A stretch of DNA of 64,000 nucleotides from Acidobacteriota bacterium. GTDB lineage: Bacteria > Acidobacteriota > Blastocatellia > Chloracidobacteriales > JADJPF01. A program made the position numbers and the translations under genes. The notes under the pieces are model-generated. The model ran no database searches, was not told the DNA's origin, and saw only the letters and a program-made list of their open reading frames with translations. The DNA is taken from assembly GCA_016213785.1 (NCBI GenBank), contig JACQZQ010000101.1:1-64000 (forward strand), written 5' to 3'. Positions within the stretch are counted from its first letter, which is position 1. Each line of letters starts with the position of its first letter. This document shows positions 3,006 through 13,845 of this stretch, one piece after another.

Positions 3006-3908
3006 ATGAAAGTATTTTATACGGATAAATACATAGTTGAACTACCAGATGGACATCGTTTTCCTATGAATAAATACCGTTTAGTTAGAGAGTCTTTACT
3101 AGAAAAAGGTATTCTAGCTATACAAGAACTATACGAGCCTGAAATAGTATCACCAGAAATAGTTACTCTAGCCCATACCCGTAAATATGTTGAATCAATT
3201 TGCAGTGGCACAATTGATTCTAAAGCAATGCGTAGAATAGGCTTTCCTTGGAGTCCATCCTTAGTTACCCGTTCACTTGCCTCTGTTGGGGGTGCACTTT
3301 GTGCAGCAAAAGTAGCGCTAGAAATAGGAATCTCTGGAAATTTAGCTGGTGGGACTCATCATGCTCTTATAAATGCTGGAGAAGGATTTTGTGTATTTAA
3401 TGATATTGCTGTTGTTATTCTGTACTTATTAAAACATAAGAAAATCCATCGTGCTGCGATTGTTGATCTAGATGTACATCAAGGTAATGGAAACTCAGCT
3501 ATTTTAGGAGATAGAAAAGAAGTTTTTATTTTTAGTATGCATGGGGAAAAAAATTACCCACTGCATAAAGTCCCTTCTACAATAGATATTGGGTTAGAAG
3601 ATAATACAAGCGATAACCAATATTTAGCTTTACTTGAAAATGCATTGCCAAAAGTCTTTGATTTTCAACCTGATATAGTTTTTTTTCAAGCAGGTGTTGA
3701 TCCGCTTAAGGAAGATACTTTAGGTCGCCTAGCTTTATCTAAAGAAGGTTTGGCAAAACGAGACAAAATAGTTTTATCTAATTGTAAAAAGCATAACATT
3801 CCTATTTCCTTAGCCTTAGGTGGGGGATATGCTAAACCTATTCAGCTAACAGTTGAAGCACATACCCAAACCTATAAAATTGCTAAAGAAATTTTTCCTA
3901 ATGCTTAA
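3006..3908 (+). CDS. Histone deacetylase family (AcuC/AphA-like) deacetylase
   Basis: A 300-residue zinc-dependent amidohydrolase of the arginase/HDAC fold. Catalytic features are intact: the paired histidines H118-H119 in GGTHHALINAGEGFC, the zinc ligands D156 and H158 in DLDVHQGNG, a third ligand D232 in AGVDPLKED, and the C-terminal transition-state tyrosine in GGGYAKP. Bacterial members remove acetyl or other acyl groups from lysines, polyamines or acetoin-pathway proteins; the natural substrate here is open. The compact length, close to the catalytic core alone, fits the short class IV-like bacterial group. It is preceded at 5 bases by the GNAT gene and overlapped at its stop by a possible 29-codon ORF. 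Confidence 0.92.
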   Translation: MKVFYTDKYIVELPDGHRFPMNKYRLVRESLLEKGILAIQELYEPEIVSPEIVTLAHTRKYVESICSGTIDSKAMRRIGFPWSPSLVTRSLASVGGALCAAKVALEIGISGNLAGGTHHALINAGEGFCVFNDIAVVILYLLKHKKIHRAAIVDLDVHQGNGNSAILGDRKEVFIFSMHGEKNYPLHKVPSTIDIGLEDNTSDNQYLALLENALPKVFDFQPDIVFFQAGVDPLKEDTLGRLALSKEGLAKRDKIVLSNCKKHNIPISLALGGGYAKPIQLTVEAHTQTYKIAKEIFPNA

Positions 3909-3990
3909 AATAGTTAACTTAATTTTGCTATTAATTAAACGAGTTGAAGAACAACAACGAGAATTAAATTTAATGTATAAAAAATCTTAA
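3901..3990 (+). CDS. Possible 29-residue ORF overlapping the deacetylase stop
   Basis: An ATG lying just before the deacetylase stop codon opens a 29-residue frame (MLKIVNLILLLIKRVEEQ then a polar tail). The overlap geometry would allow translational coupling, and the peptide has a short hydrophobic stretch followed by a charged helix. There is no independent ribosome binding site and no family resemblance, so this may be chance. Confidence 0.2.
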   Translation: MLKIVNLILLLIKRVEEQQRELNLMYKKS

Positions 3991-4021
3991 ATTTTTTGAT
4001 TACTCAAGGCGATTAGCTCTT

Positions 4022-4423
4022 ATGTCTGCTTATCCACTAGAACCTTATCTATTAAAACCAATACCAGAAATTCCTCCTGATCAAGTGGTAAAACACCAAG
4101 TTAATTCTCTAAAAAATAATAGTAAAAAAGGAGATGATTTAGGTATTGCAGCAGTTTTTATGTTTGCTTCTCCTAGCAATAAAATGTTTACAGGCCCTTT
4201 AGCAAGATTTATTAAAATGATAAAAAACCCTCTTTATGCACCTCTTTTAGATCATAAAAAAGCTTATTTTGGCCCAATGGTTATTGACGATGATAAAGCA
4301 GAACAGGTAGTTACTATAATTGATGAAAATAATAATTCAAATGTTTATGTTTTTCGCCTATCTAGACAAACTAAAGGTCATTATAGAAATTGTTGGATGA
4401 CAGATAGTGTATTAAGAAACTGA
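4022..4423 (+). CDS. Hypothetical protein, possibly DUF4864
   Basis: A 133-residue cytosolic protein without signal peptide. Its pattern is a helical start, then AVFMFASPSNKMFTGPL, FIKMIKNPLYAPLL, a strand AYFGPMVIDDDKAEQVV, and YVFRLSRQTKGHYRNCWMTDS. The order 'FASP...F.....F..M....Y..L......FG......V....Y...RQ..G.W' resembles my memory of the DUF4864 profile, a small NTF2-like domain. That assignment is tentative and needs a profile search. It stands alone in a short gap-flanked position between the deacetylase and the release-factor-like gene, on the same strand. Confidence 0.6.
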   Translation: MSAYPLEPYLLKPIPEIPPDQVVKHQVNSLKNNSKKGDDLGIAAVFMFASPSNKMFTGPLARFIKMIKNPLYAPLLDHKKAYFGPMVIDDDKAEQVVTIIDENNNSNVYVFRLSRQTKGHYRNCWMTDSVLRN

Positions 4424-4433
4424 AAAAAACTAT

Positions 4434-4459
4434 AGAAAGAAGTTTATAGAAAGAAGTTT
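4434..4459 (+). repeat. Tandem 13-bp duplication directly before a start codon
   Basis: The block tagaaagaagttta occurs twice in direct succession immediately before the ATG of the release-factor-like gene. The second copy carries the only purine-rich (AGAAAG) ribosome-binding candidate, so the duplication doubles the potential initiation region. Confidence 0.6.
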
Positions 4460-4822
4460 ATGGAAAAAATAGAAATACCAGAATCAGACGAAAAACTACT
4501 AGCAGAATGCCATGTAGAAACTTTTCGAGCTAGTGGAAAAGGCGGTCAACACGTTAATACTACCGATAGTGCAGTAAGAATAACTCATCTTCCAACAGGT
4601 ATTACAGCATCTTGTCAACAAGAACGCAGCCAACACCGTAATAAAGCAATGTGTTTAGCTAGATTACGAGAAAAACTTGCCCAATTAAACTATACTCCCC
4701 CTGAAAGAATACCTACGGATAAACCAAAGGCTATTAAAACACATGAGCATGAAAATAAAAAGCAGCAAAGTGAAAAAAAACGTACCCGAACTAAAAAAAT
4801 TAGCCTAAGTGAAGAAGACTAA
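4460..4822 (+). CDS. GGQ-domain peptide chain release factor paralogue (ArfB-like)
   Basis: A 120-residue stand-alone RF-1 catalytic domain. The peptidyl-tRNA hydrolysing GGQ is at residues 28-30 in [19 protein letters not shown], followed by the usual 'h.PTGI..scQ.eRSQ..N' block. It lacks the codon-recognition domains of RF1/RF2. The C-terminal 35 residues are very basic and probably disordered ([14 protein letters not shown]), like the tail with which ArfB (YaeJ) enters the empty mRNA channel of stalled ribosomes. A role in ribosome rescue is therefore likely, although members with this length are often annotated only as release-factor-like. The start is preceded by a tandem duplicated 13-bp leader. 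Confidence 0.85.
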
Positions 4823-4844
4823 AGAATTTCTATAGCTAGAGGTT

Positions 4845-4890
4845 CTAGCATACCCATAATAGAATAGTATTCTACTATAACTTATGCTAG
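4845..4890. promoter_or_regulatory. Nested palindrome between two genes
   Basis: An outer pair CTAGCATA / TATGCTAG encloses an inner perfect palindrome TAGAATA-G-TATTCTA (4860-4874). It lies 23 bases after the ArfB-like stop and about 110 bases before the hybrid kinase. It has no T-run like a classical terminator, so it could be an operator or RNA hairpin; function unknown. Confidence 0.35.
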
Positions 4891-4997
4891 CATAGTCGCT
4901 GTCAAAATTTTAAGTGCTTAAAATTATCTTTAAGTCATTAAGCTAGCGTTATATAAATACAAGCATTTGCCTTTTTCTAGCAATACAATATATTGTT

Positions 4998-6653
4998 ATG
5001 GACATAAAAGGGTTAATTAATATCTTAATTGTAGATGATAGTGAAGATAATTTAACTTTACTAGAAACCATCTTAGAAAATCCAGAATATAACATAGTCA
5101 AAGCTTCTTCAGGAAAAGAAGCACTAGTTTTTTTATCTAATATAGAATTTGCCTTAGTAATAATGGATGTGCAAATGCCTGGTTTATCTGGGCTTGAGGT
5201 AGCTAAAATAATTAAAGAAAACCAAAATATATCTGCAATTCCTATTATTTTTGTTACTGCTAATGCAAAACTCTCAAAAACAATATTACAAGGTTACAAA
5301 TCTGGAGCAGTTGATTATATTTTTAAGCCTGTTGACTCAGAAATTCTCTCTGCAAAAGTAGCAGTATTTGCCGAACTATTTAAGAAAAATAAAGAAGTAC
5401 AAATTGCTAAAGAAATTGCAATAAAAGCAAATGAATCAAAGTCTAAATTCTTAGCAATAATTAGTCATGAAATTCGCAGCCCTATTAGTAGTATTATTGG
5501 TTTAGCAGATTTGCTTTTAGATACAAAATTAAGCGATGAACAACGAAGTTACTCAAACTCTATAATTAACTCTAGCCAAAACCTACTATCTATAATTAAC
5601 GATTTGCTAGATTTTTCAAAAATAGATGCCAATAAATTAGAATTAGAAGAAACAGAGTTTAGCTTAATACAAATTATTGAACAATTAATAAGCTTGTTTT
5701 CATCTACCTTAAAAAATAAAAACTTAGAATTAGCCACCTTTATAAATCCTAATTTACCTTCTTTAGTAAAAGGCGATTCGGTAAGACTATACCAAATTTT
5801 AACTAACTTAGTTAGTAATGCCGTTAAATTTACTGAATTTGGCACTATTGCAATCTCTTCAAGCTTAGTGGAAGAAACCAAAACTCAAGTCTTAATAAAA
5901 TTTAGTGTAAGTGATACTGGAAAAGGTATTGTCAAAGCTAATCAAGCACTTCTCTTTGAGCCTTATATTCAAGAAGACTCTTCTATAAGCCGTAAATTTG
6001 GAGGCACAGGCTTGGGTCTATCTATATGTAAGAAACTAGTAACTTTAATGGGTGGTGAAATTTCTTTAGAAAGCGAAATTGATAAAGGAACTACTTTTTT
6101 CTTTACTGCTAAATTTCTTAAAATACTGCCCTTAAATGATAGCTCTAGTAATGAAACCCCTATTTTAAGTAATATATCTGCATTAGTTATAGGGGAAAGC
6201 TCGACTTTAGTTACTACACTAGTAAAACAGTTAAGAGTATGGGAAATAAATGCTAAACAAATAGAATCCATAGCAAAATTATTAGAATATTTAGCTAGCA
6301 ATTCTATTAATCAACATACTTCTACAATAGTTATTTGGAACATTAGTAATATTAATGATGAAATAATGGCTGAAATAACGGTTGTGTTAGAAGAAATTAA
6401 ATCTTTTCCTAATTTTCCAGCTTTGATTTTACTTATTCCTTTTTGGGAACAAAATTCTTTTCAAGAACTATCTCTTAGAGAACAAGACATTTATTTAACT
6501 AAACCTCTTCAGCCTTCTAAGCTACTTGAGCACTTCAAAAATTTAGCCTTAAGCTTAAAAACTCAATCTCCTAAAATAATTTCTAACCAAAGAGTGGCTA
6601 AATCTATTTCTAATAAAGCTCTTAATAAAATTAACTCCAAAATAAAATCTTAA
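4998..6653 (+). CDS. Receiver-first hybrid histidine kinase with degenerate C-terminal receiver
   Basis: A 551-residue soluble two-component protein with no sensor or membrane segment. Residues about 7-125 are a receiver (acidic pair D13-D14, phospho-acceptor D57 in DVQMPG, T87, K110). A helix leads to a HisKA domain with H157 in SHEIRSPISS, then an HATPase with N-box ILTNLVSNAVKF, G1 SDTGKGI and G2 GGTGLGLSI. After about residue 390 a second receiver-like fold follows (SALVIGESS ... YLTKPLQPSKLLEHF). It keeps the lysine, but the phospho-acceptor strand reads TIVIWNISN, so Asp is replaced by Asn. Autokinase output is expected to be gated by phosphorylation of the N-terminal receiver. No partner regulator is adjacent. 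Confidence 0.93.
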   Translation: MDIKGLINILIVDDSEDNLTLLETILENPEYNIVKASSGKEALVFLSNIEFALVIMDVQMPGLSGLEVAKIIKENQNISAIPIIFVTANAKLSKTILQGYKSGAVDYIFKPVDSEILSAKVAVFAELFKKNKEVQIAKEIAIKANESKSKFLAIISHEIRSPISSIIGLADLLLDTKLSDEQRSYSNSIINSSQNLLSIINDLLDFSKIDANKLELEETEFSLIQIIEQLISLFSSTLKNKNLELATFINPNLPSLVKGDSVRLYQILTNLVSNAVKFTEFGTIAISSSLVEETKTQVLIKFSVSDTGKGIVKANQALLFEPYIQEDSSISRKFGGTGLGLSICKKLVTLMGGEISLESEIDKGTTFFFTAKFLKILPLNDSSSNETPILSNISALVIGESSTLVTTLVKQLRVWEINAKQIESIAKLLEYLASNSINQHTSTIVIWNISNINDEIMAEITVVLEEIKSFPNFPALILLIPFWEQNSFQELSLREQDIYLTKPLQPSKLLEHFKNLALSLKTQSPKIISNQRVAKSISNKALNKINSKIKS

Positions 6654-6757
6654 TAAAGCAAAATTTGGGAACAAAAATTCTAAGTCTGGGTTCTAAGCTT
6701 TTATTCTAAATCTAAGTACTTTTTACAGCACAAAAATTAAATCTCAAGGAAAATGCT

Positions 6758-9700
6758 ATGGCCGCAACATTATCGCTTGTTAAAAGTAAAACTTTATCTA
6801 AAAACTATCATTACCTAATTTTTTCTATAGCCATTATTTTAATATTAATTTTTTCTAGCAATAGTTATGCTAATACTCAAGATTCTAAAGTACTTGAGCC
6901 TAATAAGCCTGTTGATCGCATCTTAAGTAACAAAGAACCTCATATTTATTCTATACCATTAAAAAAACAGGATTTTCTTGTACTAACAGTTGATCAATTA
7001 GGCATTGATATAATAGTTGAAGTTATTGACCCTAATGGACAAAAACTAGATGAGGTTAGTGATAATTCTAAAGGCCAAGAAGCTTTAGTAATGATTGCTG
7101 ATATGGAGGGTGATTATAAAATAAGGCTTATAGGTGTTGAAGATAAAAGTTTATCTGTTCCAACAATAGGCCATTATATAGTAAAAATACAAGAACAACG
7201 CCCATCAACCAAACAAGATAGAGCATTACTACAAGGCCGAGAGTTAGAAGTATTAGCTGAAATTGCATTTTCTCAAGGAATAAGAGAAAAATTTCTAGAA
7301 GCAATCAAAAACTATGAGCAGGCACTAGAACTTTTCCAAATAGCTGAAAATAAAAAAGAACAAGCTAAAGCCTTACGCGGTTTAGCCCTTTGTTACTACT
7401 CACTAAATGAAAATTTAAAGTCTATTGACTACTATGAAAAATCCCTTGCTATCTGGAAAGAACTAGGCGAACAATATAGCGTGGCTACTACCCTTCTAGC
7501 CATAGGTGGTGTTTATTATGTAATTGATGATTTTCAAACAGCCTTAAACTATTATGAACAATCGCTCCCGCTTTGGATAGAAGTAAAAAACCGCTATGGT
7601 GAAGGCTATACTCTTGCAGCTATTGGTAACGCAAAAGTTTCAACAGGAGATTATTTTAAAGCTATAGAGTGTTACTACCAGGCTATTGTTGCATATCAAG
7701 CAATAAACGAAATCAACGCCGAAGCATCTGCTCGTTTTAGCTTAAGTAATGCTTTTTATTTATTAGGGCAATATGATGAATCATTAAATAACTATCAGCA
7801 AACCCTAGATACATTTCGTAGTACTGGCGATAAAGAGGCCGAGGCTAACACTTTAGCTAGTATGGGTTTAGTCTATGCAGCACTAGAAAAGAAAGATGAT
7901 GCCTTAGATAGTTACAATAAAGCTATTGAAAAATATAAAGAAAAAAACATAGTTGTAGCAGAAGCCTTTACTCGCCTAGGCATTTCTTCTGTTTATCTTT
8001 TTGCTAAAGAATTTGATAAAGCTATTGATCAAGGGAATCAATCTTTAGATATTTTCCTAAAATATAATGACAAACGAGGCGAAGCCATTGCTTTAAGTAA
8101 TATTGGCCTAGTTCAATTTAATGCAGGAGAAAAAGAAAAAGCTAAAGAAAACTATCAAAAATCTTTAGATATTTTCCGAAGCCTTGGCTATCGTAGCGGT
8201 GAAGCAGCAATGCTCTATGGGCTTGCTAGCGTTGCAAGAGATACAGCTAATTTAGCTGAAGCAAAGACTAAAATTGAAGCAGCATTAAAAATTGTTGATT
8301 CCCCAACATTAAAAATCACTGAACAAGAAATTCGTGAGTTTAATTTTACTACCTTACGTAGTTATTTTGATCTTTATATTGATGTTTTAATGCAACTTAG
8401 TAAAACCAACCCTAATATGGGATATCAAAAACAAGCTTTTCAAGTTAATGAAAGAGCGAGAAACCGATTTTTACAAGATATTTTAACCAATATCCGCCCA
8501 ACAATTAACGATGTCTCACCCCAATTAATAGCACAAGAACGTAAGGTAAACCAATTAATTAGAAATAAAATTCGTAGCCAAATGAAACTACTTAGTGCTG
8601 ATTATAGCCCTCAACAGCTAGGAAATATTACTAGAGATTTAGAAAAATTTTCTGCTGAATATGAGCAAATACAAAAAGAAATAAAACAAAAAGCCCCTAT
8701 TTATGGGCAGTTAGTCTATCCTGATCCAATAGCTCTAAATGAAACACAAAAACTTTTAGATAAGGATACAATCCTACTTGAATATTGGTTAGGAGACCAA
8801 CATAGTTATCTTTGGGTAATTACACCAAATAAAGTTGAAAGCTTTGAGCTATCTAAAAAAGCAGAAATAGAAGATTTAGCTAGAAAGTTTCATTTATGTT
8901 TGTCTGCTCGTAATAGCCGAATAAAATATGAACAATCAAAACCTGTTAATCAGCGCCCTGCTGTAGCTGAGGCTGACCCTCTAGTAGAAGAACTTTCTAA
9001 TACCTTAAGCCAAATACTCTTAAAACCCATAGCAGACAAACTAGGAAAATCTAAACTCCTAATTGTAGGCGAAGGAGCACTTCATTTTATCCCCTTTGCA
9101 GCCCTAGTTGACCCAGTAGACGAAACTAAAAAAGTTCCTTTATTAATTGCCCATGAAATAAATATTCTGCCTTCTGCACACTCACTAACTTTACTTAATA
9201 GTTCAACTAGTAAAACAAAACTTTCAGAGCTAAAAGTAGCACTTTTTGCTGACCCAATACTTTCTGTAGACGATGAACGATTACAAGGAAAAGGCAAAAA
9301 ATCTAGACAAGAAAATGCAGTGGCAACAGACATATTAAAATCACTTAAAGACCCTGCAAGGCTTTCTGTAGAACTTGCCTATCGTGCTGCTGATGATACA
9401 GATGTCTTTAACAATAGCTATAGAATCCCTCGTCTACCATTATCCGACCTAGAAACTAAACAAATAACTACTACTTTAGGAAAGGAAAAAATTAAACAAA
9501 CCCTTGGAGATGCCTTTAACAGAGTATCTACATTTAATCCAGAACACTCTGACTATCAAGTAACTCACTTAAGTTCTTATGCTCTTATTAATAGTAAAAA
9601 CCCTGCCATATCAGGTATTGCTCTATCGCTTTTTGATAATGATGCTAAAGAACAGGATAACTTCTTAAAACTTAAAGACTTATATAATTTACCTTTCACT

Positions 9701-10009
9701 TCACAGCTTTTAGTTATAAGTGCTGGTGGAACAACTATGGGAAAAAATATTCGCTCAGAAGGCTTTTATGCTTTAACTCGGGGCTTAATTCATTCTGGTA
9801 CAAAACAAACTCTTTTAAGTCTTTGGACAATAAAAGATGAATCTAGGGTTGAACTAATGAGCCGATTTTATCAAGGACTAGCAAAAAACTTACAACCTGC
9901 TCAAGCCTTGCGAGCCGCACAAATAGCGATTTGGGAGCAAAAACGTTGGCAAGCTCCTTACTATTGGGCACCATTTGTTATAGTTGGAAATACCAAAAAT
10001 GATAAATAA
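6758..10009 (+). CDS. Secreted/anchored TPR protein with degenerate CHAT domain
   Basis: A 1083-residue protein. A hydrophobic segment about residues 18-38 is a signal peptide or anchor. Residues about 45-145 resemble a PPC-type beta domain (PNKPVDRIL ... EGDYKIRLIG). About 160-520 are at least eight tetratricopeptide repeats, then a helical linker and a C-terminal CHAT (caspase HetF-associated) domain ending YYWAPFVIVG. In the CHAT core, the usual HFATHG reads HLSSYA (Y941 at the histidine position) and the usual SACxT reads SAGGT (G990 at the cysteine position). It should therefore lack caspase-like proteolysis and act as a scaffold or binding module. The C-terminal ...SLWTIKDES... and RFYQGLAKNL signatures are otherwise well preserved. 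Confidence 0.9.
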   Translation: MAATLSLVKSKTLSKNYHYLIFSIAIILILIFSSNSYANTQDSKVLEPNKPVDRILSNKEPHIYSIPLKKQDFLVLTVDQLGIDIIVEVIDPNGQKLDEVSDNSKGQEALVMIADMEGDYKIRLIGVEDKSLSVPTIGHYIVKIQEQRPSTKQDRALLQGRELEVLAEIAFSQGIREKFLEAIKNYEQALELFQIAENKKEQAKALRGLALCYYSLNENLKSIDYYEKSLAIWKELGEQYSVATTLLAIGGVYYVIDDFQTALNYYEQSLPLWIEVKNRYGEGYTLAAIGNAKVSTGDYFKAIECYYQAIVAYQAINEINAEASARFSLSNAFYLLGQYDESLNNYQQTLDTFRSTGDKEAEANTLASMGLVYAALEKKDDALDSYNKAIEKYKEKNIVVAEAFTRLGISSVYLFAKEFDKAIDQGNQSLDIFLKYNDKRGEAIALSNIGLVQFNAGEKEKAKENYQKSLDIFRSLGYRSGEAAMLYGLASVARDTANLAEAKTKIEAALKIVDSPTLKITEQEIREFNFTTLRSYFDLYIDVLMQLSKTNPNMGYQKQAFQVNERARNRFLQDILTNIRPTINDVSPQLIAQERKVNQLIRNKIRSQMKLLSADYSPQQLGNITRDLEKFSAEYEQIQKEIKQKAPIYGQLVYPDPIALNETQKLLDKDTILLEYWLGDQHSYLWVITPNKVESFELSKKAEIEDLARKFHLCLSARNSRIKYEQSKPVNQRPAVAEADPLVEELSNTLSQILLKPIADKLGKSKLLIVGEGALHFIPFAALVDPVDETKKVPLLIAHEINILPSAHSLTLLNSSTSKTKLSELKVALFADPILSVDDERLQGKGKKSRQENAVATDILKSLKDPARLSVELAYRAADDTDVFNNSYRIPRLPLSDLETKQITTTLGKEKIKQTLGDAFNRVSTFNPEHSDYQVTHLSSYALINSKNPAISGIALSLFDNDAKEQDNFLKLKDLYNLPFTSQLLVISAGGTTMGKNIRSEGFYALTRGLIHSGTKQTLLSLWTIKDESRVELMSRFYQGLAKNLQPAQALRAAQIAIWEQKRWQAPYYWAPFVIVGNTKNDK

Positions 10010-10027
10010 GTAAGAAAACGTCTTAAG

Positions 10028-10099
10028 AAATCTCTTAAATCTCTTAAATCTCTTAAATCTCTTAAATCTCTTAAATCTCTTAAATCTCTTAAATCTCTA
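10028..10099. repeat. 9-bp tandem repeat (about 8 copies)
   Basis: The unit aaatctctt is repeated about eight times without interruption in the gap between the TPR-CHAT gene and the S41 protease. The preceding ttaagaaat and following aatctctaag look like decayed edges. It is a typical slippage-prone minisatellite and a potential strain-typing locus. No stem-loop forms. Confidence 0.9.
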
Positions 10100-10276
10100 A
10101 GCATAAAAGGTTTTCTTAAACCGTTTATATAGCTTAAGAGCTTAAAACTTATAATCTGCTTACTGTTTAGACATAAGCAAAAATCTTCTTATCATCAGCA
10201 TAATTGATATGCTATAGTTCAAATGCTTTTTTGCTCACTTCGTCAAAATATGTTTCTAGCATTTCGTGAGGACTTG

Positions 10277-13537: not shown

Positions 13538-13845
13538 CGTTTTCTCCTCTTGAATTGAGTGTTTGTAGGTTTAGATTAAGTAAAGATCAAAATTAGAGGC
13601 TAGGCTTTTCAGTTGCGGGTATGATTACGCTTTCAACACCCGGTAAACACTTGACACCGTACAGCAAGGCTCCAGACAGTGCGAAATAAAGCTAAATTTA
13701 TAAAATTGCAAGTCTGAAAAACTTTACCTCAAAGAACAAATATAAAAAGCCACAATATAGTAGATATAGAGCTATGTCTCTATATTAGAGCTATGTCTCT
13801 ATATTAGAGCTATGTCTCTATAGTTAAGTATAAATATAAAAATCA
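13538..13845. other. Gap between atpB and atpE: GC-richer islet plus hairpin repeats
   Basis: About 13,590-13,690 is clearly richer in G+C than its surroundings. On the minus strand it contains an inverted repeat CGGGT...ACCCG and a frame of about 32 codons with no ATG start. Upstream of it (13,765-13,822) are three tandem 19-bp hairpin units. An mRNA leader or processing region for atpE is possible; no gene is supported. Confidence 0.4.
13765..13822. repeat. Three tandem 19-bp hairpin units
   Basis: The unit tagagctatgtctctatat is repeated three times. Each copy contains TATAGAG / CTCTATA around a 6-base loop, so each can fold on its own. It lies just after the atpB stop on the minus strand, inside the F0 transcript. 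Confidence 0.85.

Follow-up and report, generated by a model that had tools for sequence, protein, structure and literature searches.

Csx29, the TPR-CHAT protein of type III-E CRISPR (Craspase), is built from two caspase-like halves. CHAT1 is a pseudo-caspase and, along with the N-terminal domain and the TPR, contacts Cas7-11, while catalysis takes place in CHAT2 (PMC10028731). In HetF, another CHAT protein, the putative active site is needed for function (PMC8406250). Pseudo-forms of caspase-like proteins are already known, both as the CHAT1 half of Csx29 and as pseudo-orthocaspases: among 9,994 bacterial orthocaspases, 858 are missing at least one residue of the catalytic dyad, typically by an HC->YS replacement (PMC6426788), and deletion of a pseudo-orthocaspase in Synechocystis alters survival under oxidative stress (PMC7889975). 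In humans, the pseudo-caspase FLIP(L) acts on caspase-8 (PMC7586951). In the open-access literature, to which our search was limited, we came across neither a description of a dead CHAT2 domain nor a study of Acidobacteria CHAT proteins, nor one on the function of the exported TPR-CHATs of Acidobacteriota, of which single genomes of the class hold up to ~65. Here, we report a TPR-CHAT protein that has lost both dyad residues, encoded in the window, i.e., the whole stretch of 64,000 nucleotides analyzed from a Blastocatellia contig of the Acidobacteriota.

The open reading frame at 6758-10009 has exact boundaries and encodes 1083 amino acids. The Pfam CHAT profile (PF12770) matches residues 745-1078 with E=1.6e-50 and 172.6 bits against a curated cut-off of 24, covering profile positions 2-289 of 289, and many TPR matches are found besides. 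The GC1/2/3 values of the gene (0.49/0.33/0.19) are similar to those of the neighbor genes and represent a normal coding composition. The parts of the gene are as follows, with the boundary between the two CHAT halves being approximate.

6758..10009, + strand: gene of the predicted TPR-CHAT pseudoprotease, 1083 aa (open reading frame, Pfam CHAT and TPRs, coding-type GC)
6758..6871, + strand: predicted Sec-type signal, aa 1-38, possible cleavage after SYA (A38) (sequence reading; helix 17-31 in the model; relatives start alike)
6905..7204, + strand: N-terminal beta domain, ~aa 50-149, PPC-like at most (AlphaFold2 strands 52-149, pLDDT mostly 90+)
7211..8296, + strand: TPR superhelix, aa ~152-513 (Pfam TPR families; AlphaFold2 helical hairpins)
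8735..9067, + strand: CHAT1-like half, ~aa 660-770 (Foldseek; near-invariant positions at 660-744)
9068..9991, + strand: CHAT2 half, the former catalytic half, aa ~771-1078 (Pfam CHAT; Foldseek)
9578..9580, + strand: codon TAT, Tyr941 replacing the catalytic His (alignments)
9725..9727, + strand: codon GGT, Gly990 replacing the catalytic Cys (alignments)

The His motif reads THLSSYA (Y941) and the Cys motif reads VISAGGT (G990). These two residues align with the catalytic His and Cys in all five alignment sets, i.e., paralogues of the same genome (MAFFT), 29 relatives from other genomes (MAFFT), HMM-based CHAT alignments, a 182-domain MAFFT alignment, and a diverse 18-row set; their placement in the active site rests on sequence alignment. 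The flanking motifs H937, S988, LTRG, SLW, and YYWAPF align without ambiguity. The whole protein was also checked for an alternative Cys nucleophile: its Cys residues are at 212, 305, and 714 only, leaving none in the catalytic half past residue 714, and this, together with the unambiguous alignments, rules out a displaced dyad. Sequencing error is rejected as a sufficient cause, since 30 further near-invariant positions differ, mostly conservatively. The claim of the earlier note that both protease residues are lost is thus borne out, and no intact His/Cys was found elsewhere in the active site. The catalytic His and Cys of a CHAT cysteine protease (clan CD peptidase) are both absent; with both gone and no Cys to substitute, cysteine-protease activity by the known mechanism is impossible. 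Loss of this activity is as sure as sequence can make it, and the window protein is best classed with the CHAT fold family as a catalytically dead protein rather than as a CHAT protease.

Structural modeling agrees with the membership in the fold family. The full-length AlphaFold2 model (47 sequences, mean pLDDT 83.8, pTM 0.75) consists of a hydrophobic helix (17-31), strands (52-149), a long superhelix of TPRs (152-513) and, after linker helices, the CHAT region with its two halves. A separate model of the last 445 residues has a mean pLDDT of 84.3 and a pTM of 0.86, and in Foldseek it matches Csx29/TPR-CHAT best (E=2e-11, an alignment spanning >420 columns), followed by separases (separase protease domain, E=9e-9). 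The window protein as modeled has the separase/Csx29-like fold of the CHAT family, and its CHAT1-like half is the positional equivalent of the Csx29 pseudo-caspase half. At the N terminus, the export signal suggested earlier holds as a prediction, with clear n, h, and c regions by sequence reading, the hydrophobic helix at 17-31, and SYA|N at 36-38; it is common to the relatives. The PPC-like domain suggested along with it stands only as a beta domain: its strands have pLDDT mostly above 90, but the PPC profile (PF04151) has no match in the window protein, and of 25 relatives eight give a weak, sub-threshold one (best E 0.011). Both N-terminal features, signal and beta domain, are general traits of the expanded exported TPR-CHAT family, active members included, so that they say nothing special about the dead copy.

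Such losses are rare and clustered. The class sample comprises 182 distinct CHAT domains drawn from 56 genomes; His/Cys is present in 175, one is a fragment lacking the His stretch, and six are missing one or both dyad residues. Five of these six are in the genus of the window (three in the window genome, two in one sister species), and all five have His->Tyr, which is one C->T change and hence an easy route. Dead CHATs amount to 5/25 in the genus vs 1/156 elsewhere in the class (Fisher p=2e-4); please note that this p-value is a guide only, the sample having been picked by similarity and profile score with orthologous pairs counted twice, and that the CHAT sets are near complete only for genomes G000 (the window genome) to G003 and G005. 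Of 84 other CHATs from GTDB contigs, 83 are H/C, though this set is biased because one of the search patterns included the His. Genome G005 (same order, 8.3 Mb), an extreme case of CHAT family expansion, has ~65 CHAT matches, and 56/56 domains with both positions readable are H/C. The other dead copies are the following, G001 being the sister species.

G000 contig C57:90673-94116: L022, exported TPR-CHAT, Y/C (FATYG / SNC); orthologue L104 on G001:C498, Y/C
G000 contig C76:50953-54177: L031, distant subfamily, apparently exported, Y/N; orthologue L113 on G001:C467, Y/N
G143 contig C458: L118, Pro in place of the catalytic His and loss of the Cys motif, from a different family within the class

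The C57 and C76 dead CHATs are kept under purifying selection in the genus. Between the window genome and the sister species, the CHAT-part dN/dS (Nei-Gojobori) of the Y/C orthologues is 0.18 and that of the Y/N orthologues 0.22, both within the range of intact-dyad pairs (about 0.11-0.32), from which it follows that the genus does keep dead CHATs. A search of 158 class genomes found orthologues of the two proteins in the sister species only. The earlier note proposed to look for conservation of the double loss among close homologues; the answer is divided, as the window copy is without an orthologue while these two other dead CHATs are conserved in the sister species. The dyad loss of the C76 protein is probably independent of that in the window, given that the two proteins are only ~20% identical in the CHAT region. 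A single origin of the window Y/G and C57 Y/C losses is neither shown nor rejected (AU p=0.27).

We consider it probable (roughly 0.6) that the window protein is a lineage-specific exported TPR-CHAT pseudoprotease that serves as a non-cutting binding or regulatory module in the cell envelope. The main rival to this reading, which we hold to be rather unlikely, is a decaying duplicate, i.e., constraint was lost after duplication, the dyad went with it, and the gene is en route to a pseudogene with no present function. What speaks for decay is first of all the isolation of the gene. Neither the sister species nor the 162 class genomes searched yielded an orthologue, the best relatives in the latter reaching ~39% identity over part of the protein, and a GTDB contig scan using patterns from the window protein gave none either; the sister genome is 87% complete, which makes the absence there likely, not certain. 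The gene lies together with a histidine kinase gene in a block that has no counterpart at either syntenic flank, the left flank being syntenic to sister contig G001:C464 up to 3905 (78% DNA identity) and the right flank to a different contig, G001:C323, from 10188 onward (84% DNA identity).

3906..10187, no strand assigned: block not matched at either of the two syntenic flanks of the sister species (alignments to G001:C464 and G001:C323)
4998..6653, + strand: receiver-histidine kinase hybrid, 104 bases upstream of the window gene (Pfam Response_reg, HisKA, HATPase_c)

Decay is also in line with the rate of change. The window branch is the longest of the subfamily (1.97 vs median 0.61), and in a wider tree it is 1.93 vs a median of 0.51, with one more distant row longer. 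The window protein retains the fewest near-invariant CHAT positions, 81/113 (72%) vs 82-100% in H/C relatives, so that the earlier statement that the flanking motifs are well kept holds only in part. Relaxed selection would give such a long branch and so few kept positions too. A TPR-CHAT gene with intact H/C in the same genome (L023, G000 contig C117:5909-8998) carries an in-frame TAA and is possibly a pseudogene or an assembly error, so decay may happen in this family. On the other hand, the frame of 1083 codons is intact with normal three-position GC, many of the 32 changed positions are conservative substitutions, the model is confident, and purifying selection acts on the genome's two other dead CHATs. 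Furthermore, the drop in near-invariant positions lies in the catalytic half: the CHAT1-like stretch 660-744 keeps 15/17 of them, as active paralogues do, and is not relaxed, while residues 745-1083 keep 62/92. Within the latter, lost positions amount to 7/13 in the two dyad motifs vs 23/79 elsewhere (p=0.11), a trend only.

The neighborhood, scanned up to ~18 kb, contains acetyltransferase, HDAC-like, histidine kinase, S41 protease, T2SSE/PilT-like, ATP synthase, and ribosomal genes, with the histidine kinase and the S41 protease adjoining the window gene. No CRISPR, Cas7-11, or gasdermin gene is among these scanned neighbors, in keeping with the earlier separation of the protein from CRISPR- and gasdermin-linked CHATs, and a search of a defense-system library with the window protein gave essentially TPR matches only. 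The kinase has no orthologue in the sister species, and its partial matches, up to ~47% identity, are typical of kinase domains. A conserved link with a histidine kinase was considered and rejected: none lies beside the other two dead CHATs (ORF starts by eye), and this one is without a sister orthologue. No conserved partner gene of the window protein was found. As separate observations, the C-terminal 170 residues of the kinase resemble, on visual inspection, a degenerate receiver that lacks the phospho-Asp, and its G+C of 0.289 is below that of its neighbors; a small ORF at ~4450-4850 with a GGQ motif resembles a release-factor-type peptidyl-tRNA hydrolase. A perfect 9-base tandem repeat (AAATCTCTT, 7.9 copies) occupies 10028-10098, downstream of the CHAT stop and ahead of the S41 gene, with the synteny break (10188) following ~90 bases later, and a perfect 19-base tandem repeat (2.9 copies) is found at 13767-13822.

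Coming back to the non-cutting envelope module, it is likely that the window protein retains some job: its frame is unbroken, the parts of a binding type are conserved, and other dead CHATs are demonstrably kept in the genus. This job, we infer, would be binding in the envelope without cutting, performed by the TPR and CHAT1. In such a scenario, an active exported TPR-CHAT of this lineage would have given rise to the window protein, its former catalytic half evolving faster. The TPR superhelix and the pseudo-caspase CHAT1 half may bind a partner, and the dead CHAT2 half may hold a ligand or substrate uncut or take the place of an active paralogue. The effect could be to damp or to scaffold active TPR-CHAT proteases of the same cell; the scaffold role proposed in the earlier note is likewise something that we infer. 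Our data suggest that the genus has turned some TPR-CHAT proteases into binding or regulatory proteins. A wider proposal is possible, though we put it forward tentatively: that the genus has repeatedly and independently converted exported TPR-CHATs by His->Tyr with or without loss of Cys, keeping several as envelope binders or regulators that control or counterfeit active CHATs in the same cell. Active, half-dead (Y/C), and fully dead (Y/G, Y/N) copies are available side by side in this genus, and naturally dead copies maintained by selection would show that some of what the family does requires no cutting.

In a more specific arrangement, the dead protein would not act alone but form a pair with an active TPR-CHAT paralogue and turn its activity on or off, in the manner of FLIP(L) and caspase-8. 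The window genome offers candidates, as eleven of its CHAT domains keep H/C and several belong to the same exported subfamily, and FLIP(L) itself is a precedent; Csx29, however, acts as a single subunit in complex with another protein, and we regard allosteric pairing as improbable. It is a sub-case of the binding/regulatory reading and indistinguishable from it here. That the protein is still an enzyme by another nucleophile or chemistry is very improbable, for although Y941, S988, T992, and H937 still provide some polar residues around the pocket, active members also have S988 and H937, conserved beside the real dyad, so these two are not new nucleophiles, C->G leaves no side chain, and the loop after G990 (residues 992-997) is of low model confidence.

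Compared with known systems, the window protein is nearest to the exported TPR-CHATs of Acidobacteriota (Blastocatellia-type) and the cyanobacterial TPR-CHATs (PF12770), with which it shares the predicted signal, TPRs, and CHAT at ~28-40% identity; the acidobacterial members of that comparison set have the beta domain as well. The difference is in the dyad, which is Tyr/Gly here and His/Cys in 175 of the 182 CHAT domains. Csx29 is the best structural match, with the same TPR and two-half CHAT fold, but its CHAT2 is active (H615/C658, PMC10028731) and only its CHAT1 half is a pseudo-caspase; it is cytoplasmic and Cas7-11-bound, and its N terminus is a three-helix bundle instead of the predicted beta domain. 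Separase (peptidase C50) has the same fold, and of the 25 family members aligned, 11 give a weak match to Pfam C50, but it is eukaryotic, active, and not exported. The transmembrane anti-sigma factor DdvA (PDB 8rot/8rw5), a protein with a CHAT domain, matches the CHAT part in fold (E=4.4e-6) and by sequence profile (E=5e-7); it was rejected as a precedent for a dead CHAT, as its ATHG and AAC motifs are kept and its dyad appears intact. The pseudo-orthocaspases have likewise lost the dyad with Tyr at the His position and been kept over evolution, a likeness in the way of working only: they have a caspase p20 domain, are spread over large groups, and carry Ser for Cys, whereas the dead CHATs of this genus are genus-limited and, where the Cys is replaced, carry Gly or Asn, and no Peptidase_C14 match is found in the window protein up to E=0.5. 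CHAT joins those caspase-like groups that have members with Tyr in place of the catalytic His, and repeated conversion within the genus, if true, would be the CHAT counterpart of the pseudo-orthocaspases and FLIP.
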